Below, piece after piece: positions 2,576 to 61,920 of a stretch of DNA of 64,000 bases (the stretch's first letter is position 1; every line of letters starts with the position of its first letter). A program made the position numbers and the translations under genes. The DNA comes from Amycolatopsis orientalis DSM 40040 = KCTC 9412 (lineage in GTDB: Bacteria; Actinomycetota; Actinomycetes; Mycobacteriales; Pseudonocardiaceae): NCBI RefSeq assembly GCF_000478275.1, contig NZ_ASJB01000015.1, positions 93,615-157,614 of the forward strand, written 5' to 3'. Under the pieces are notes generated by a model. The model did not search any database, had not been told where the DNA came from, and worked only from the letters and a program-made list of their open reading frames with translations.

Positions 2576-4602
2576 TCTGTTTTGTCCTTAGTCTTTTCGG
2601 GCTGCTTGACCACCGGGGATAATCCGCGCCGCACGTCGCCCGCGGCGGGACGTGCCTTCCGGTCGCGGTCGATCGCCTTCGCCGAGGATTCCAGCTGCCA
2701 CGGCACGCTGGTCACCATGACGCCGGGTTGGAACAGGAGCCGCCCCTTGAGCCGCAGCGCGCTCTGGTTGTGCAGTACCTGCTCCCACCAGTGCCCGACC
2801 ACGTATTCGGGGATGAACACCGTCACCACGTTGCGCGGATTGTCGCCGCGCACGCGCTTCACGTAGTCCAGCACCGGTTTCGTGATCTCGCGATACGGCG
2901 ATTCGATCACCTTCAGCGGCACCTTGAAATTGTGGTCGTCCCAATCCTGGACGAGCTGGCGCGTTTCGCCGTCGTCGACATTCACCGTCACCGCTTCGAG
3001 GACGTCGGGACGGACTGCCTTGGCGTAGGAAAGCGCGCGCAGTGTCGGCAGGTGCAGTTTCGAAATCAGCACGATCGCGTGATTCCGGGACGGCAGAACG
3101 GCCGGTTTGCGCTCCATTTCGCGCAATTCTTCGGCGACCCGGTCGTAGTGTTTCCGGATCGCGGTCATCAGGATGTAGATGGCCACCATCGCCGCGATCG
3201 CGATCCAGGCGCCGAGCAGGAACTTCGTGATCAGCACGATGATCAGCACGGTGCCGGTCATGGTGAGGCCGACGCCGTTGACCGTCTGCGAACGCCGCAT
3301 CCGCCGTCGCACCGCCGGGTCGGATTCCCTGGCCAGCAGGCGGTTCCAGTGCCGGATCATGCCCGCCTGGCTGACCGTGAAGGAGACGAACACCCCCACG
3401 ATGTAGAGCTGGATGAGCTTCGTGACCTCGGCGTCGAACGCGATGATCAGCACCAGGGCGAAGGCGGAGAGGAACAGGATCCCGTTGGAGAACGCCAGCC
3501 TGTCGCCCCGGGTGTGCAGCTGGCGCGGCAGGTAGCGGTCCTGCGCGAGGATCGAGCCGAGCACCGGGAAGCCGTTGAACGCGGTGTTCGCCGCCAGCAG
3601 CAGGATGATGCCGGTGGAGAAGGAGATGTAGTAGAACGCCGGCGGGAAGTCGGGGAACACCGCCTGCGCGATCTGGGCGACGATGGTCTTCTGCTCGTAC
3701 CCCGCCGGGGTGCCGGAAAGCTGGGTCTCTGGATGCTCGGCGAACTTGACGTCGGTGATGATCGCCAGCGTGATGATGCCGACCAGCATCGTCACCGCGA
3801 GCACACCCATCAGCAGCAGCGTGGTCGCCGCGTTCTTCGACTTCGGTTTCCGGAACGCCGGGACGCCGTTGCTGATCGCCTCGACCCCGGTCAGCGCCGC
3901 GGCGCCGGAGGAGAACGTCCTCAGCAACAGGAAGAAGAACGCGAAACCGGTCAAAGAGGCTTCTTCATGCAATTCGAACCCGGCGCTCTCGGCCCGCATG
4001 TCGGCGCCGGAGGCCGCCTCGATCAGGCCCCAGACCACCATGCCGAGAATGCCGATGATGAACCCGTAGGTCGGGATGGCGAACGCTTTGCCCGATTCAC
4101 GAACTCCGCGAAGGTTCAGCGCCGTCAGGACGGTCACGATGATGATCGCGGCGGGCACCTTGTTCTGCGCCACCCACGGCACGGCCGAACCGATGTTCGC
4201 CACGCCGGACGAGGTCGACACGGCCACCGTGAGCACGTAGTCGACCAGCAGCGCGCTGGCCACGGTGAGCCCGAATTTGCCGCCGAGGTTGGTGTTGGCG
4301 ACTTCGTAGTCACCGCCGCCGCTCGGATAGGCGTGCACGTTCTGCCGGTAGGAGGCGACCACGACCAGCATGACGAGTGCGACGGCGACCCCGATCCAGG
4401 GTGCGAAGGCGTACGCGGACAGGCCGGCGACGCTGAGGGTCAGAAAGATCTCCTCAGGCGCGTAGGCGACGCTCGACAACGCGTCGGACGCGAAAATCGG
4501 CAGCGCGATGCGCTTCGGCAGCAGCGTATGCGAGAGGCGGTCACTCCGGAATGGACGTCCGAGGACGAGCCGCTTCACCACGGTCGGGAACTTCGACACC
4601 AC
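2572..4602 (-). CDS. APC-superfamily permease, KimA-like (putative K+ uptake)
   Basis: A 676 aa integral membrane protein. About 480 residues carry roughly 12 hydrophobic helices, beginning with the family-typical LPIFASDALSSVAYAPEE. A cytosolic C-terminal domain of about 180 residues follows, with a USP/Rossmann-like look (HAIVLISKLHLPTLRALSYA). This architecture is that of the Bacillus KimA/YdaO K+:H+ symporter group and of Rv2690c. It lies divergent from two TrkA-type regulatory proteins, which supports a potassium role. Two adjacent GTG codons are possible starts (4602, 4599). No clear Shine-Dalgarno precedes them, so a leaderless or very short leader is possible. The upstream gap contains a 56 bp tandem duplication. 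Substrate is inferred from homology and neighbours; amino acid transport is the alternative. Confidence 0.82.
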   Translation of the reverse strand: MVSKFPTVVKRLVLGRPFRSDRLSHTLLPKRIALPIFASDALSSVAYAPEEIFLTLSVAGLSAYAFAPWIGVAVALVMLVVVASYRQNVHAYPSGGGDYEVANTNLGGKFGLTVASALLVDYVLTVAVSTSSGVANIGSAVPWVAQNKVPAAIIIVTVLTALNLRGVRESGKAFAIPTYGFIIGILGMVVWGLIEAASGADMRAESAGFELHEEASLTGFAFFFLLLRTFSSGAAALTGVEAISNGVPAFRKPKSKNAATTLLLMGVLAVTMLVGIITLAIITDVKFAEHPETQLSGTPAGYEQKTIVAQIAQAVFPDFPPAFYYISFSTGIILLLAANTAFNGFPVLGSILAQDRYLPRQLHTRGDRLAFSNGILFLSAFALVLIIAFDAEVTKLIQLYIVGVFVSFTVSQAGMIRHWNRLLARESDPAVRRRMRRSQTVNGVGLTMTGTVLIIVLITKFLLGAWIAIAAMVAIYILMTAIRKHYDRVAEELREMERKPAVLPSRNHAIVLISKLHLPTLRALSYAKAVRPDVLEAVTVNVDDGETRQLVQDWDDHNFKVPLKVIESPYREITKPVLDYVKRVRGDNPRNVVTVFIPEYVVGHWWEQVLHNQSALRLKGRLLFQPGVMVTSVPWQLESSAKAIDRDRKARPAAGDVRRGLSPVVKQPEKTKDKTE

Positions 4603-4607
4603 AAGAG

Positions 4608-4720
4608 AGTAACGGCGACGCGCAGCGTCTCCGTTGAGGGTGGTGGCGGGGAGGACGGTGGGAAGTAACGGCGACGCGCGGCGTCTCCCTTGAGGGTCGC
4701 GGAGGGGAGGACGGTTGGAG
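4608..4720. repeat. Two tandem copies of a 56 bp unit between divergent potassium genes
   Basis: Copy 1 begins at 4608 and copy 2 at 4664, both with AGTAACGGCGACGCGC and both ending in a GGGGAGGACGGT block. They differ at only a few positions. Each unit contains the inverted repeat GACGC-gcN-GCGTC. The array begins 6 bp upstream of the permease start and lies about 90 bp upstream of ceoB, so it fills most of the divergent control region. On the minus strand each unit ends in CGTTACT, which could serve as a -10 element for a leaderless permease transcript. Whether it binds a regulator is unknown. Confidence 0.8.
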
Positions 4721-6129: not shown

Positions 6130-6166
6130 GCGACCCGGCCTACGGAGGGCCGACCTCCCGCATTTC

Positions 6167-6214
6167 GTCCTCTGGATGCGGTACTTGCGCGTGCATCTAC
6201 CGCATCGAGAGGAC
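6167..6214. repeat. Family C palindrome, probable bidirectional terminator
   Basis: A 17 nt inverted repeat with one mismatch, beginning GTCCTCTGGATGCGGTA and closing TACCGCATCGAGAGGAC, with a 14 nt loop. It lies between the convergent ceoC and DUF3159 genes, and the right arm reaches the DUF3159 stop codon. The same element occurs at 28765 and 58751. Confidence 0.85.
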
Positions 6215-6951
6215 TAAATGCGCGGGTTGTCGACGGCGGGCGCCTGGGCGTACTTCTCCCGCAGCCGCGCCTCGATCTCTTCGTCGGTCTCTTCCGGCGG
6301 GGCCTCTTCGGCCTGCGCCTTGAGGTGCTTCTCCGACCGCCGCACCGCCCAGACGACGGTGAGCAGGCCGAGCGCGTACAGCGGGTACCCCATCGCGATC
6401 TTCGCGAAGGCCAGCCAGCCGGTGTAGTCCTCGTCGTACAGCCAGCGCTGGACGACGAACCGGGCGCCGAAGATCAGGGCCATGGCGGCGGTCGCGATCG
6501 AGTAGGAGATCAGCGACTTCTTGTCCTTGCGCCAAGCGTGGCCGTTGCCGTTGAGCGCGTTCCACACCACCCCGGCGAGCGGCCAGCGAACGACGATCGA
6601 CAGCACGAAGACACCGCAGTAGACCAGGCTCGTCCAGATGCCGAACAGGAAGAAGCCCTTGGCCGATCCGGTCCGGTAGGCGATGAACGCCGCGATCGCC
6701 ACCCCGAAGAACCCCGAGATGGCGGGCTGCAGCGGCTCCTTGCGGACGATCCGCAGCACCGTGATGGCCACGGCGCTGCCGACGGCGGCCCAGATGCCGA
6801 CGGTCAGGCCGAAGATGGCGTTCGCGATCACGAACACGATGACCGGCAGCGAGGAATAGAACAGCCCCGACAGCCCGCCCATCTGTTCCAGCAGGGTGGG
6901 CTGCGGCTTCTTGTCGTCGGTCTTCTCTTCGCCGCCGGCGGGTTCAGTCAC
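6214..6951 (-). CDS. DUF3159 membrane protein
   Basis: A 245 aa membrane protein. A charged cytosolic N-terminus of about 25 residues precedes about six hydrophobic helices (for example LPVIVFVIANAIFGLTVGIW and SLVYCGVFVLSIVVRW). The tail is acidic and Lys/Glu-rich (EEAPPEETDEEIEARLREKY). This is the DUF3159 layout, and the position equals Rv2693c. The start is GTG at 6951, 9 bp after the stop of the OB-fold gene, so the two form an operon. Role unknown; permease-like folds have been suggested for such proteins, but nothing here shows a substrate. Confidence 0.88.
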   Translation of the reverse strand: MTEPAGGEEKTDDKKPQPTLLEQMGGLSGLFYSSLPVIVFVIANAIFGLTVGIWAAVGSAVAITVLRIVRKEPLQPAISGFFGVAIAAFIAYRTGSAKGFFLFGIWTSLVYCGVFVLSIVVRWPLAGVVWNALNGNGHAWRKDKKSLISYSIATAAMALIFGARFVVQRWLYDEDYTGWLAFAKIAMGYPLYALGLLTVVWAVRRSEKHLKAQAEEAPPEETDEEIEARLREKYAQAPAVDNPRI

Positions 6952-10224: not shown

Positions 10225-10699
10225 TTGTCCCTCACCCCTGCGATCAGCTTCGATGTCAGATGGCCCGGACCCGCGAGCGCGTGGCTCGTGAGTCCTTCGT
10301 GCCGCTGGTTAACGTCCCAGCGCCCCTGTTTGTGCCCGGCTCGGCAGTGAGCGAGGTCTCTCTTTTGCGCCTCTTACTGCCGCCTGAGCCCGCGAAGGGT
10401 AGCTCACGCCGATACCGGCTCTGCAACGAGTCAGACATTGCCGCGAATACGTCACCCAACAGGGGGAACCTGCCCGAGGGCGGAGAAGCTGTCCTGAAGA
10501 CGCCCGTCGTCCGAATGGGTTGCCCCTGCGTCGGGAACCTCACCGACCGGGCCCGGTCGCTTGCCCGGAGTGGCCGTCGCGTGGTGCTATCCGGAGGCCC
10601 GCGCCGACGACCTTCGCCTCAACGCATAGGCTGATCGGACACGACGGTGTGACTGAACGCACCGTCCGGGGATCCGGGCTTTGGGGAAGGGACTGGCAG
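10225..10699. other. Intergenic region between divergent DUF4193 and cei
   Basis: These 475 bp contain no convincing gene. Several open frames exist, but they are Arg/Pro-rich and have no recognisable product. The stretch must hold the promoters of both divergent genes. It is less GC-rich than the flanks near 10360-10400, but no clear -10/-35 pair, riboswitch or repeat was recognised. Confidence 0.6.
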
Positions 10700-11383
10700 G
10701 TGGCGTCGGGGAACGGCATCGGGGACCGCGGGGCGAAGCCGTATCGCAAGCACAACCCGCTGCCCGCGCTCATCGTGATCGGGGTGCTGGCACTCGGCGC
10801 GGTGATCGTCTGGGTGAACGTCGTGGCGAGCGGCGCCGACGTCGACGCCAAGATCCGCTGCGATCCACCGCCCTCTCCGCAACCGGGCGTCACCTACACG
10901 TCGCTCGCGCACAACGGGTTGGACGATCGCGCGCCGGTGCCGCCGGACAAGGTCGCCCTCCAGGTGCTCAACGGCTCCCAGATCCGCGGCCAGGGCGGCA
11001 TCGCCACCAGCACGCTCAAGGAAATGGGCTTCTCCCAGGCACTCGAGCCGATCACCGACCCGGCCTACAAGAACGCCGAGGCCAAATGCCGCGGCCAGAT
11101 CCGCTTCGGCGAGAACGGCGCGGCGGCGGCCCGCACGGTGAGCCTGGTGGTCCCGTGCGCGGAACTGGTCAAGGACAACCGCAAGGACGCTTCGGTCACC
11201 CTCACCACCGGCACCCTGTTCGGCGACATCCGCCCGAAGGCGGAGGCCCGTCAGGTCCTCGAGCAGCTCACGCAGTGGTCGAAGGCGCAGCAGGGCACCG
11301 GCGGCGGCGAGCAGTCGGCGGGCGGCGGCGCCCCGGTGATCGACCAGGCACTGCTGAAGGCCGCCCGCGAAGTCCCCTGCTGA
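10700..11383 (+). CDS. cei: Cei-type envelope protein with LytR C-terminal domain
   Basis: A 227 aa membrane-anchored protein. A basic cytosolic N-terminus (residues 1-22) precedes one membrane helix (LPALIVIGVLALGAVIVWVN). The extracytoplasmic LytR_C domain follows (VALQVLNGSQIRGQGGIAT ... VVPCAELVKDNR) and contains paired cysteines. GTG 10700 is preferred because GGAAGGG lies 9 nt upstream. It corresponds to Rv2700 (cei, cell envelope integrity). Convergent with suhB across a family A repeat. Confidence 0.9.
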   Translation: MASGNGIGDRGAKPYRKHNPLPALIVIGVLALGAVIVWVNVVASGADVDAKIRCDPPPSPQPGVTYTSLAHNGLDDRAPVPPDKVALQVLNGSQIRGQGGIATSTLKEMGFSQALEPITDPAYKNAEAKCRGQIRFGENGAAAARTVSLVVPCAELVKDNRKDASVTLTTGTLFGDIRPKAEARQVLEQLTQWSKAQQGTGGGEQSAGGGAPVIDQALLKAAREVPC

Positions 11384-11397
11384 CCGATTCCCCAAGC

Positions 11398-11479
11398 GGG
11401 CTGAAAGGGCCCTTCCCCGCATCACATGCGGCGAAGGGCGCTTTCCTCGCATGCGATGCGGGGAAAGCGCCCTTCAGCC
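11398..11479. repeat. Family A compound palindrome, probable bidirectional terminator
   Basis: About 82 bp between convergent cei and suhB. The ends are inverted (GGGCTGAAAGGGCCC and GCGCCCTTCAGCCC), and inside are two overlapping hairpins built on the core CGCATSRSATGCG. The second hairpin, AAGGGCGCTTTCC...GGGAAAGCGCCCTT, is nearly perfect. Other copies lie at 19709 and 33905. Confidence 0.85.
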
Positions 11480-11491
11480 CCTGCCGGAACC

Positions 11492-18222: not shown

Positions 18223-19451
18223 CCGCGGTCCTCCTCAGCTTCGCCTGGGCGGTCCCGCTGTCGGAGCGGGAGGCGGGGAAGGTCCTGGACGGCGGCCGGG
18301 ATCGCGGCCTGCTGACCCACCTCGACGGGAAACTCGGCGAGGAATGGACGGCCGCGGAGAACTTCCTCACCAGCTACACGACCCCGCCGCTACGGCGGGT
18401 GCTGCGCAAACGCACCGGGGGTTCCCGGCTGGCGATCCGCCTCGGCGCGCTCAGCCTGCCGTGCGAACTCGTCGTCACCTGGCATCCGAGCTATCACGCG
18501 ATGACGCTGATCCTCGCCACCACCGTCACCGCGCCGACGGCGGACCGTCCCGCCGCGGAATTCGATCTCGCCATCGCCGTCCTGCAGAGCCTCCAGGGCC
18601 GGGAGACGGCGAACGGGGCGGACGGACTGCACGGCGGCTACGGAGAGAAGACCTTCCCCTCGCTCCTCAAGGCCGTCACCCACATCTTCGAGGACCTGAC
18701 CAAGGGCTGCGGGCTGACCGAAGGGCTCAGCCGCAAGGGCTGGTGTGTCGAGCTGCGGTCCCACGACGGACATCCGCCCGCGCAGCGGGTCGCCGGCGAT
18801 CCCCGGCCGTTCTACGGGATGGCGACCAGTGACGAGGGCTGGCGGTTCGTGCCCCGCGAGGTCGCCAGGGACGCGCTCGGTCCGTCCTGGGGAACCCGGT
18901 CCTTCGTCGCCGCCTACACGATGGCGGGCGGGATCGTCTGCCTCAACAGCAAGGATTCCGAGTACGTCGAGCACCAGGACGAGCTGATGCGCGGCCCGTT
19001 CGGCGCGGCCGAACCGTACTTCGGCATCGACAGCGACGTCGGCGGGCTCGACCACGGGATGCTCTTCATCCTCGAACGGGTCCTGATCCGGATGGCGCTG
19101 GCCGACCAATGGCTGCGCACCGCCCAGCATGAGATGCGGACACTGGCGGGGAAGCAGAAGGCGGCGAGCCGCACCCGGCTGCTGCGCGGCTCGCTCGACG
19201 ACATCCTCGAGATGCTGCATTCGGTGCTCCCGCCCGAGATCGATTCGCTGGAGCGCCGACTGGTCACCAGCATGGGCGTGGAGCGGATCATCGCCCAGCT
19301 CGACCGCCAGGCCGAGGCGATGGACGAGGAGACCCGGTACACCTACGAGAACACGGTGAGCGCGCGGGTCACGCGGCTCACCGTGGTGACCGTCGTGCTG
19401 ACGATCGTCACCATCGTCCTCGGTGTCCTGCAGGTGCTCGTGTCACTCTGA
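18219..19451 (+). CDS. Unrecognised 410 aa protein with C-terminal membrane anchor
   Basis: Translation is coupled to the upstream methyltransferase by a 4 nt overlap. The long N-terminal part (residues 1-300) looks like a mixed alpha/beta soluble domain (LLSFAWAVPLSEREAGKVLD; LPCELVVTWHPSYHAMTLIL; SFVAAYTMAGGIVCLNSKDS). A helical, coiled-coil-like segment follows (residues about 310-380, Arg/Leu/Glu-rich with SMGVERIIAQLDRQAEAMDE). The last 24 residues are one hydrophobic helix (VVLTIVTIVLGVLQVLVSL). The helical arm plus terminal helix recalls CorA-like or bactofilin-type anchoring, but there is no GMN motif, so CorA is excluded. I recognise no family. The pairing suggests a membrane-tethered sensor or effector whose partner is methylated. 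Confidence 0.8.
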   Translation: MTAVLLSFAWAVPLSEREAGKVLDGGRDRGLLTHLDGKLGEEWTAAENFLTSYTTPPLRRVLRKRTGGSRLAIRLGALSLPCELVVTWHPSYHAMTLILATTVTAPTADRPAAEFDLAIAVLQSLQGRETANGADGLHGGYGEKTFPSLLKAVTHIFEDLTKGCGLTEGLSRKGWCVELRSHDGHPPAQRVAGDPRPFYGMATSDEGWRFVPREVARDALGPSWGTRSFVAAYTMAGGIVCLNSKDSEYVEHQDELMRGPFGAAEPYFGIDSDVGGLDHGMLFILERVLIRMALADQWLRTAQHEMRTLAGKQKAASRTRLLRGSLDDILEMLHSVLPPEIDSLERRLVTSMGVERIIAQLDRQAEAMDEETRYTYENTVSARVTRLTVVTVVLTIVTIVLGVLQVLVSL

Positions 19452-19658
19452 TCCGCCGCGGCGGCGCTGTTTGCGGGCGCGCTCGGCGAACAGGACCACC
19501 ACGCCCGCCGCCACCATCAGCGCGCTCGCCACGATGTGCGTCCCCGGCGGGAGCAGGTGGAGCTGGACGAACCAGCTCGGCCCGGAGCCGCCCAGCAGCC
19601 GGTTGATCAGCCCTCCCGCGCCCTGGACCAGCAGCAGGATCCCCACCACCTCGATCAT
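19443..19658 (-). CDS. Small two-helix membrane protein, 71 aa
   Basis: Two hydrophobic helices (VVGILLLVQGAGGLINRLLG and THIVASALMVAAGVVVLFAE) and a basic tail ARKQRRRGGSE. Its ATG overlaps the stop of the upstream membrane protein gene by 4 nt, so it is translationally coupled. Its 3' end overlaps the convergent gene at 19451 by 9 bp. Function unknown. Confidence 0.72.
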   Translation of the reverse strand: MIEVVGILLLVQGAGGLINRLLGGSGPSWFVQLHLLPPGTHIVASALMVAAGVVVLFAERARKQRRRGGSE

Positions 19659-20350
19659 CGCCGCGCTCCTTCCGGACGGTGGACGTCTTCCGGGTCACTT
19701 CCGGGGCCGGGCTGAAGGGGCCCTTCACCGCGTCGCACGCGGTGAAGGGCGCTTTCCTCGCGTCGCATGCGGTGATGGGCCCCTTCAGCCCGGTCGTGCC
19801 GGGGGGTGAGCTGCTGCCACAGCGGGCCGGTCGCGAACCAGATGGCCGTCACGACCCCCAGCCGCGGCAGCCACCCCCACAGCGGCGCGACCCGCTCGGT
19901 GTCGCCGACCAGGAAGATCAGCCCGAGCAGCACCACCGCGGCGAGCGCGCAGGCCGCCACGCATTTCCCCCAGTCACGCCATTCGGCGCGCAGCTTCTCC
20001 CGGCCGTCCGGCTTGTGCGGCGGCGGCCCGCCCGCGAACCGGTGGGCGAACCGCACGTCGGCCCACTTGATCATCGAGTGCCCGAACACCACGCTGAAGC
20101 CGAGGTAGACCGCGGCGAGGCCGTGCACGAAGTTCGCCTTGGCCCCGTCGCGCAGGTCGATCACCGTCCCGGCCAGCACGACGAGGTCGATCACCGGCGT
20201 GAGCAGCAGCAGGACGACGCTCGTCCGCCGCAGTTTGAGCAGATAGCGGGCCACCAGGCCCGCGGCGATGGCGACCCAGAAGGCGATCTCCCCGCCGGCG
20301 ACCACCGCCGCGATGGGGTTTTCCTCGATGAAGTCCCAGATCTTGTTCAC
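19655..20350 (-). CDS. Membrane protein whose C-terminus contains an in-frame family A repeat
   Basis: A 231 aa polytopic protein with about five helices (IAAVVAGGEIAFWVAIAAGL; TSVVLLLLTPVIDLVVLAG; NFVHGLAAVYLGFSVVFG; KCVAACALAAVVLLGLIF; VTAIWFATGPLWQQL). GTG 20350 is chosen as start. After QQLTPRHD the frame runs through the palindrome at 19709-19791 and reads RAEGAHHRMRREES and VRRGEGPLQP, then ends PEGARR with a stop that overlaps the next start by 4 nt. The basic repeat-encoded stretch is unlike anything upstream, so the element probably replaced or extended the original C-terminus. Function unknown. Confidence 0.7.
   Translation of the reverse strand: MNKIWDFIEENPIAAVVAGGEIAFWVAIAAGLVARYLLKLRRTSVVLLLLTPVIDLVVLAGTVIDLRDGAKANFVHGLAAVYLGFSVVFGHSMIKWADVRFAHRFAGGPPPHKPDGREKLRAEWRDWGKCVAACALAAVVLLGLIFLVGDTERVAPLWGWLPRLGVVTAIWFATGPLWQQLTPRHDRAEGAHHRMRREESALHRVRRGEGPLQPGPGSDPEDVHRPEGARR
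19709..19791. repeat. Family A compound palindrome inside a coding sequence
   Basis: About 83 bp with inverted ends (GGGCTGAAGGGGCCC / GGGCCCCTTCAGCCC) and inner arms around CGCGTCGCAYGCGGTGA. It is closely similar to the copies at 11398 and 33905. It is open in the frame of the host gene and contributes about 28 codons. Confidence 0.88.
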
Positions 20351-28179: not shown

Positions 28180-28765
28180 CCAGACCGAACGCTCGCAGTC
28201 GACGCAGACCGCCCTGATCACGGCGGCGCGGAGACTGTTCGCCGAACAGGGCTACGCCGCCGTGCCCGCCGACGAGATCGTCCGGGCGGCGGGGGTCACC
28301 CGTGGCGCGCTGTACCACCACTTCGGGGACAAGCAAGGACTGTTCCGTGCCGTGGTCGAGCAGGTCGAAACGGAGATCACCGCGGAACTCCAGGCGGTCC
28401 TGCGGGCGGCGGACGATCCCTGGACGGCGGCGCTCGGCGCGCTGAGCCGCTTCCTGGACCTGTGCCTGCGGCCCGAGGTGGTGCGGATCTCGCTCACCGA
28501 CGCCATCACCGTCCTCGGCTGGCAGGAATGGCGCGAGCTGGAGAACCGGTACGGGCTGGGCCTGATCACGGAGCTCCTGGAGGCCGTCGCCGCGGACGGG
28601 CGGCTGATCGAGGGGCCCATCCCGGAGCTGGCCCAGCTGGTGCTGAGCGCCTGCGCGGAGGCGGCGTTGATGATCGCGCACGCCGAGGACCCCGACGCGG
28701 CGAAGGCCAAGGCCCTGCAAGCCCTGGTGGCCCTGCTCTCTGGCCTCGTGAAGGACCGCGTTTAG
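28160..28765 (+). CDS. TetR-family repressor of the hydrolase operon
   Basis: A 201 aa regulator. The N-terminal helix-turn-helix (residues about 15-60: AARRLFAEQGYAAVPADEIV then GVTRGALYHHFGDKQGLFRA) is textbook TetR. The C-terminal half is a variable ligand-binding helical domain. It starts inside the hydrolase gene and is co-transcribed with it. The palindrome at 27286 is its likely operator. The TAG stop shares one base with a family C repeat. Confidence 0.93.
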   Translation: MPTPRRSQTERSQSTQTALITAARRLFAEQGYAAVPADEIVRAAGVTRGALYHHFGDKQGLFRAVVEQVETEITAELQAVLRAADDPWTAALGALSRFLDLCLRPEVVRISLTDAITVLGWQEWRELENRYGLGLITELLEAVAADGRLIEGPIPELAQLVLSACAEAALMIAHAEDPDAAKAKALQALVALLSGLVKDRV

Positions 28766-28813
28766 TCCTCTGGATGCGGTCCTTGCGTCGCGCAAGCACC
28801 GCATCCAGAGGAC
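28765..28813. repeat. Family C palindrome, probable bidirectional terminator
   Basis: A perfect 16 bp arm pair, GTCCTCTGGATGCGGT / ACCGCATCCAGAGGAC, with an inner TTGCG/CGCAA stem. It lies between convergent TetR and ROK genes. Confidence 0.9.
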
Positions 28814-28823
28814 TGAACGCGTG

Positions 28824-33584: not shown

Positions 33585-33758
33585 CGCCGAACGGGGTCCA
33601 CGGAAGACGGCTGGATCGATTAAGCCTCATCAAATGGACACGGTTTGGCAACGTGGCCGTAGCAAGGCGTACGAAGTCTAGGTGCGCTGACGGTGTGACC
33701 GCCACCACTCACGGAGTGTGACCGCGGCTGCCGCGGTGTCTGGGTCCCTAACGCTAGG

Positions 33759-33799
33759 AAAGGTCCTTTCCTGGCAAATTTTGCCAGGAAAGGACCTTT
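33759..33799. repeat. Family B palindrome
   Basis: A perfect 20 bp palindrome, AAAGGTCCTTTCCTGGCAAA and its complement, with a 1 nt centre. It is nearly identical to the copies at 45034 and 51981. It is one of three stacked elements in this gap. Confidence 0.88.
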
Positions 33800-33904
33800 C
33801 ATGGCACGTCTTCGCCCTGGCCCGCGGATGCTTGGTCGCTTCCCGGCCTGGGCACATGGCAACGCACCGTGAAGGGTGGCGATGAGGCGCGGGCCGGGGT
33901 GGGC

Positions 33905-33986
33905 GGGCTGAAGGGGCCCTTCACCGCATCGCATGCGGCGAAGGGCGCTTTCCTCGCATCGCATGCGGGGAAAGCGCCCTTCAGCC
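33905..33986. repeat. Family A compound palindrome
   Basis: About 82 bp with the same GGGCTGAAGGGGCCC start and CGCCCTTCAGCC end and two inner hairpins on CGCATCGCATGCGG. It lies between the helicase 3' end and the xylF promoter. Confidence 0.88.
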
Positions 33987-33994
33987 ACGCGTAT

Positions 33995-34047
33995 GTCATG
34001 AGGGGTCCCCATCAGACGAAATTCGTCCTATGGGGACCCTTCATGAC
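33995..34047. repeat. Family D palindrome
   Basis: GTCATGAGGGGTCCCCAT with a complementary right arm (ATGGGGACCCTTCATGAC) and a few mismatches. It is the same family as 61868. It lies 16 bp after the helicase stop and is probably its terminator. Confidence 0.85.
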
Positions 34048-45033: not shown

Positions 45034-45086
45034 GCCATGAAAGGTCCTTTCCTTGCAAATTTTGCAAGGAAAGGACCTTTCATGGC
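45034..45086. repeat. Family B palindrome, probable bidirectional terminator
   Basis: A perfect 26 bp palindrome with a single central T (left arm GCCATGAAAGGTCCTTTCC...). It lies between the convergent psuK and DUF3099 genes and is the longest copy of this family in the window. Confidence 0.93.
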
Positions 45087-45100
45087 ATGCGCGAAACGCG

Positions 45101-51976: not shown

Positions 51977-51980
51977 GAGG

Positions 51981-52021
51981 AAAGGTCCTTTCCTTGCAAA
52001 TTTCGCAAGGAAAGGACCTTT
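51981..52021. repeat. Family B palindrome, probable bidirectional terminator
   Basis: A 17 bp perfect arm pair (AAAGGTCCTTTCCTTGC / GCAAGGAAAGGACCTTT) around AAATTTC. It lies between the convergent fumarase and lipoprotein genes. Confidence 0.9.
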
Positions 52022-52040
52022 CATGGCGCGCGCGAGCGCG

Positions 52041-58740: not shown

Positions 58741-58750
58741 CCTGCGTTTC

Positions 58751-58798
58751 GTCCTCTGAATGCGGTCGTTGAATGCGCAAATACCGCATCGAGAGGAC
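58751..58798. repeat. Family C palindrome
   Basis: GTCCTCTGAATGCGGT / ACCGCATCGAGAGGAC with two mismatches and an inner loop. It lies 19 bp after the GntR stop and upstream of the phosphonate operon promoter. Unlike other copies, its flanking genes are tandem, not convergent. Confidence 0.85.
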
Positions 58799-58817
58799 TG
58801 AACGCGTGGAGGTCGGG

Positions 58818-61851: not shown

Positions 61852-61867
61852 CTTCCTCGCACGGCAT

Positions 61868-61920
61868 GTCATAAGGGGTCCCCATAGGACAATTCTCGTC
61901 CTATGGGGACCCCTTATGAC
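61868..61920. repeat. Family D palindrome, probable bidirectional terminator
   Basis: A perfect 23 bp arm pair (left starts GTCATAAGGGGTCCCCATAG) with a 7 nt loop. It lies between the convergent protease and nitronate monooxygenase genes and ends 4 bp before the latter's stop. Confidence 0.92.

Follow-up and report, generated by a model that had tools for sequence, protein, structure and literature searches.

The window analysed here, i.e. the whole 64,000-nt stretch of a draft Amycolatopsis orientalis genome (9.06 Mb, 98 contigs; nearest named relatives Amycolatopsis species including A. regifaucium, A. azurea, A. thailandensis, A. decaplanina and A. keratiniphila), carries a membrane-protein gene whose reading frame passes through one copy of a dispersed palindromic repeat, hereafter family A (Table 1). 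This gene starts with GTG according to our own gene caller, which was trained on this genome (the window and 18 stretches of 20 kb), and no Pfam or NCBIfam family matched it. The frame enters the element as GCT GAA, reads ...RAEGAHHRMRREESALHRVRRGEGPLQPG... and meets no stop ahead of 19655; together with the gene call this bears out an earlier note on this DNA, which had the frame running straight through the repeat and the stop overlapping the next gene start by 4 nt. The Shine-Dalgarno-like sequence of the downstream gene, GGAAGGAG, is placed after the insert and is intact.

Table 1. Features of the locus and related repeats in the window
Feature	Position	Strand	Basis
Family A palindromic element, in frame inside the membrane-protein gene	19709..19791	.	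direct repeat and inverted repeat
Conserved membrane-protein gene, family unassigned, 231 aa	19655..20350	-	gene call; match in 65 of 80 genus genomes
Extra sequence between element and native gene end, about 24-30 nt	19679..19708	-	alignment with 18 orthologous tails, all of which lack it
ATGA overlap of stop with next start	19655..19658	-	gene calls; shared by the 18 nearest orthologues
Downstream small gene, 71 aa, hydrophobic	19443..19658	-	gene call
Family A copy between convergent genes	11398..11480	.	gene calls
Family A copy between two same-strand genes	33905..33987	.	gene calls
Second hairpin family, three copies	33758-33813, 45039-45094, 51980-52035		GAAAGGTCCTTTC, loop with TTGCAAATTTTGCAA or close to it, GAAAGGACCTTTC

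The 3' ends of 29 orthologues of the membrane-protein gene were compared, and a 28-sequence alignment was also used. The element is absent from all 18 of the closest orthologues, whose genomes together with this one (19 genomes) we take to form an "orientalis group"; all 18 keep the ATGA overlap and end in ...PLWQELSPKDDRVKEGARR before the stop or in something alike (GMRR, GTRR, GVRR, RAGR; mostly EGARR), and no palindrome was found in these short tails. Since the window gene ends in ...PLWQQLTPRHDRAEGAHHRMRREESALHRVRRGEGPLQPGPGSDPEDVHRPEGARR before its stop, i.e. in matching final residues, the native end persists behind the insert. Relative to its orthologues the gene has a net gain of 36 codons (108 nt), with residues about 187-226 of the protein as the extra segment; the gain of about 28 codons given in the earlier note thus holds for the share contributed by the element and falls short of the total. 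For approximately 24 nt of the insert, located within 19679-19708, the alignment offers no equivalent in any relative, so that the event was not a clean insertion, and several relatives carry CGGGTCAAGG where the element starts CGGGCTGAAGG, a short resemblance that might have guided it. The per-codon coding statistic falls sharply at the junction, from +0.28 in the gene body to -0.53 in the element (28-codon windows of the training genes have a mean of 0.285 and a standard deviation of 0.105), and structure prediction for the whole protein (mean pLDDT 59.2, pTM 0.32) was too poor to judge the tail. The copy at 19709 is a derived in-frame insertion near the C-terminus of a real, conserved gene, as the comparison of 3' ends suggested by the earlier note supports, with nothing among the orthologues speaking against it. 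Because no alternative stop exists, the element-encoded tail is probably translated into extra protein.

A repeat search of the window recovered one direct-repeat family with three copies (11396-11479, 19707-19790 and 33903-33986), of which the other two are 81% and 93% identical to the reference copy; the 19709 copy forms a palindrome with arms at 19707-19746 and 19754-19793 that are 83% complementary. Searching the genome itself with this copy gave 83 matches (both strands counted, 40 of 243 candidates scored), and a strict family A pattern gave 84 forward and 79 reverse matches, against none in either direction for the reversed control, which excludes chance as the origin of the repeat. The 83-bp repeat with copies at 11398 and 33905, both of them intergenic, was therefore correctly described in the earlier note, as was the open frame of the 33905 copy. 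The latter carries no weight as a sign of coding, being at background level: of 182 copy-orientations, 116 are open in one usable frame of family A and 114 in the other (91 copies remained once 15 of the 106 hits, whose ends did not fit the search expression, had been dropped), compared with 62% of frames in random intergenic 79-mers.

In 89 copies of exactly 79 nt the layout is unit-loop-unit-loop-unit, with units of the kind GAAGGGCGCTTTC, i.e. three alike 13-nt palindromes with palindromic loops between them, any two of which are largely able to pair; overall length is nearly constant at 79-83 nt, and the ends are GGCTGAAGG/CCTTCAGCC (aligned ends of 30 copies, consensus of 89). Each of the outermost eight pairs is the same Watson-Crick pair in 80-89 of the 89 copies. 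Counted directly, standard pairs reach 88.5% between units 1 and 2, 77.9% between units 2 and 3 and 81.9% in the outer fold, against 42-58% in slid-register controls. The 89 copies are predicted to fold very stably as RNA (mean MFE -53 kcal/mol). The RNAalifold consensus is weak (-12 kcal/mol), probably because the three units can pair in three ways. An Rfam search returned seven matches with E up to 1, all to microRNA hairpin families and all under the gathering scores (best match E 1.1e-6, 45.7 bits against a gathering score of 90), which we rejected as generic hairpin resemblance.

Across the genus, the strict pattern is present in 26 of 80 genomes and absent from 54. Forward/reverse matches reach 55/50 in G060, 54/47 in G049, 54/53 in G031 and 35/28 in G007, and fall to 0/1 in the sister species G042 (two-gene tree, support 98); such unequal copy number among near relatives fits a mobile family. 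G031 and G069 (15/12) lie outside the orientalis group as taken here, the former on account of its more distant orthologues, and for G031 the high count makes horizontal spread of family A possible. As a separate observation, one locus of about 530 bp (L006:1501-2030) holds one full and two partial family A copies, the partial ones belonging to a tandem repeat of about 223 nt.

The placement of family A copies in this genome was examined in a non-random sample of surveyed loci made up of the 30 closest matches to the window copy, pattern hits taken in the order listed as far as contig C63, a few extra hits, two long-open-frame stretches, the window and 18 fixed-coordinate 20-kb stretches. From a raw census of 106 hits (102 intergenic, 61 convergent), nine shorter than 70 nt were set aside (five cross-hits to the second hairpin family and four partial family A copies), leaving 97 full-length hits, the lowest scoring 20 bits, such that a few may be doubtful. 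Ninety-three of the 97 are intergenic and four lie in genes. The intergenic copies divide into 53 convergent, 34 same-strand and five divergent, and one with an unknown neighbour; where both neighbours are known the convergent share is 53/92, compared with 33/183 for background gaps of at least 60 nt (Fisher p 7e-11). Within 360 kb at fixed coordinates, 85% of it coding, one of nine full-length copies is in a gene. Copies lie close to stop codons: overlaps of 1-25 nt with a copy occur at 27 gene ends, and at 20 gene ends the whole stop is inside the copy, in 18 cases at gcTGAagg. Proximity to stops, together with stops inside copies, indicates that family A ordinarily occupies gene 3' ends as a hairpin and on occasion gives a gene a new end.

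The share of copies inside genes is a lower bound, as insertions that break a gene would score as intergenic with this caller, which also missed a known NRPS copy at L197, a locus of 3 kb; a check for others overlooked in the same way was negative. A long open frame around a copy was rejected as an indicator of in-gene position, since 53 of 54 hits in 49 loci (29 of a set of 30, plus 20 chosen for long open frames) were not scored as lying in a called gene, L197 being among the 53. The sole scored in-gene hit of the 54 is in L281, whose gene stops inside the element; L193 and L278 have 26-27 nt of gene over the copy. The other NRPS locus, L170, was left out of this count and was called as one gene in a separate check. 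The 20 stretches with the element peptide in a long open frame (two from this genome, 18 from relatives) include one, L281, with at least 40 nt of called gene over the copy.

The four in-gene copies are those in the window gene, in the tail of an MFS transporter (L162, PF07690; copy at L162:8446-8524) and in two adenylation domains of giant NRPS genes, with GCT as the entry frame in the first and CTG in the MFS and NRPS genes. In the transporter, the C-terminal tail is element-encoded up to two residues ahead of the stop. By eye, six of 19 species have family A in frame at this tail (G000, G024, G034, G007, G060, G049), eight a different palindrome in frame (G037, G076, G014, G015, G042, G020, G052, G002) encoding PKSVKASF...KEAFTERV or variants, four truncated or remnant forms (G044, G074, G063, G026) and one, G013, no recognised palindrome; in G002 the second palindrome is followed by what appear to be the last codons of family A (FSPRR before the stop). 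Several of 11 further orthologues have short tails (such as ...RRELVxS before the stop) and others long ones. The two tail types are interleaved on a tree in which several nodes are weakly supported. Relative to G000, the other family A tails differ at 5-8 of 72 nt and the gene bodies at 86-105 of 1,125 nt, and this like divergence is more readily explained if the element has long been part of the gene than if it was recently inserted six times. Among 15 pairs, the pN/pS of the tail lies at 0.35-0.7 in 11, at 1.4 in two and at 0 in the other two (body 0.07-0.17), and with 0-8 changes per pair these values do not show a function of the tail.

The NRPS copies lie in adenylation domains (L112 and L113, PF00501 spanning the element) of adjacent giant genes with open frames of 8,726 and 7,223 codons. 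Here the element is internal and in frame, in a linker ahead of the YTSGSTG core motif that we take to be the one between core motifs A2 and A3, and it occurs in two of the 16 adenylation domains read in three ORFs of the NRPS stretch. In alignment, two element-free domains from the same genes and one from G008 are 18 codons shorter at this point, which indicates that part of the native linker was replaced. The element-carrying modules are 91% identical to each other; the pair probably reflects, as this identity suggests, one insertion followed by copying between modules.

Several known systems invite comparison. REPs of the GTAG and CGTC superfamilies are described in a 2013 survey as mostly intergenic short palindromes near the 3' ends of convergent or same-strand genes; some donate stop codons, some lie in ORFs, which they lengthen by 20-30 residues or more, and two Xanthomonas species have different REPs at about one place in recB (PMC3733652). 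Family A resembles them in its location at gene 3' ends, mainly in convergent or same-strand gaps, and differs in lacking the GTAG/CGTC tag (its ends are given above), in its 79-83 nt with three palindromic units, and in donating mostly TGA rather than TAG. The Y1 transposase (RAYT, PF01797) had no match in the G000 draft, whilst five of 14 control genomes were positive; this search, which covered the Y1 family, yielded no parent transposase for family A. Terms for actinobact, streptomyces and amycolatopsis had no hits in the available text of PMC3733652. MITEs (ERIC, BOX, SPRITE), small non-autonomous inverted repeats beside genes with terminator-like forms and in-frame fusions on record (PMC10969869), share terminal inverted repeats with family A; by eye, no clear target duplication is present at the window or 11398 site.

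Rickettsia elements are about 150 bp long; each of them codes for a conserved peptide, and close to half are situated in ORFs (PMC10969869). Coding palindromes of Wolbachia and Methanocaldococcus have, by the description cited in PMC2996958, likewise entered various genes in frame. Two Rickettsia families (RPE-4, RPE-6) are counted among REPs (PMC3733652), such that the line separating these classes is blurred. The earlier note had likened the window copy to the Rickettsia elements, and the likeness stands insofar as a palindrome lies in frame in conserved genes of which the orthologues, or other NRPS modules, are free; membership or close similarity is not supported, as family A uses two frames at background openness instead of a conserved peptide in one, and its share in ORFs is small (4/97, or 1/9 at fixed coordinates). 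Family A is better likened to the REP elements of gene 3' ends than to the Rickettsia coding palindromes.

Accordingly, we consider it highly likely that family A is a REP-like dispersed 3'-end hairpin of an Amycolatopsis species group, one copy of which was captured in frame by the window gene. Such a hairpin normally follows directly on a stop codon, most of all in gaps between convergent genes, and its transcript would be a very stable structure with a putative role in 3'-end structure or as a two-way barrier to transcription. When a copy lands in the last codons of a gene, the entry frame sets the outcome, in that one frame offers the element's own gcTGAagg as a new stop and the other two allow translation to run through. 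In the window gene the copy landed in a hydrophilic C-terminal tail; thanks to entry as GCT GAA and a gain of 108 nt, the last native codons survived, as did the ATGA overlap and the ribosome site of the downstream gene, the predicted protein gaining 36 residues, many of them Arg and Glu. The tail is probably made and, as the site is hydrophilic, tolerated, probably as a near-neutral passenger without a function of its own. As counterpoints, a strong mRNA hairpin might make readthrough as far as the gene's end less efficient, and there are only four gene-internal copies, the NRPS pair probably being one event.

It is unlikely, in our assessment, that the tail was instead selected, with hairpin or peptide serving the gene pair through e.g. 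adjusted translational coupling to the overlapping small gene or mRNA stabilisation. Preservation of the overlap and the downstream ribosome site, the stability of the predicted RNA folds (over the 89 copies) and the position of the element about 50 nt upstream of the next start are all compatible with such a role; however, relatives without the element share the overlap, and a site that is empty in the 18 closest of them gives no sign of retention by selection. Somewhat less probable still is a true Rickettsia-type coding element, with its own frame under selection and spreading through genes as a peptide module. Four in-frame copies in three kinds of gene, an MFS tail that is open in six species and sites that look permissive (two tails and a linker) might suggest this, but it is already largely refuted by the two entry frames (GCT and CTG), by frames no more open than random intergenic DNA, by the intergenic position of 93 of 97 full-length copies and by the long-open-frame stretches, of which one in 20 has a gene over the copy, stopping inside it. 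That the gene ends earlier, or that a repeat was mis-assembled into it, is very improbable even for a draft of 98 contigs with many similar repeats, given that the copy is distinct from all others scored (best matches 87-88%), that no in-frame stop precedes 19655, that the native last residues resume behind the insert and that sequencing reads are usually longer than an 83-bp repeat.

The site behind the gene at 10649-11383, which holds the 11398 copy in the window, was compared across 19 species. Family A is found there in this genome alone (1/19), whereas 11 of the 18 relatives (11/19 species: G034, G037, G020, G052, G074, G014, G024, G049, G063, G042, G013) carry the second hairpin family, which has the architecture of family A but one hairpin, its loop mostly TTGCAAATTTTGCAA or close to it and its stems varied but self-complementary. 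G052 has two such copies, G014 an N stretch and G013 a more different loop. The remaining seven species (G015, G060, G044, G007, G076, G026, G002) have no element, with only a few bases separating their convergent stops. Over the 10-15 nt per side that were read by eye, the flanks of the 11398 copy resemble those of the second-family copies in G034, G074 and the sister species G042. From this site and the MFS tail we suggest, only tentatively and as something that may well prove otherwise, that in these bacteria hairpins of several families, all with alike ends (TGAAGG...CCTTCA), take one another's place at a site.

The window also contains further repeats. A third palindromic family, ATGTCATGAGGGGTCCCCAT...ATGGGGACCCCTTATGAC, has copies at 33993-34047 and 61866-61920 (84% identical), the first directly adjoining the family A copy at 33905; a fourth, with inverted repeats CCGCATTTCGTCCTCTGGATGCGG...CCGCATCGAGAGGACT, lies at 6157-6225, 28756-28823 and 58741-58809; and a tandem pair of 56-nt direct repeats (4608-4719, 89% identical) is located just past the gene start at 4599.

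Entry into ORFs, donation of stops and different palindromes at one site are already known from REPs, as the available text of PMC3733652 describes, and the titles and abstract openings of the literature searched held nothing on such Amycolatopsis repeats or on actinobacterial coding palindromes. Specialists may be surprised by the position of the element within NRPS genes and by the one site at which coding palindromes are swapped. The window gene is a clear example, from a free-living actinobacterium, of a "non-coding" repeat getting into a protein, and many close relatives still have the empty site. Most striking are the NRPS copies, which present repeat insertion as a source of linker diversity in natural-product enzymes. 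Hairpin replacement at orthologous sites makes the movement of repeats directly testable in cultivable type strains and, if the hairpins are indeed swapped as cassettes, the C-terminal tails of proteins would be exchanged by a non-coding repeat system.
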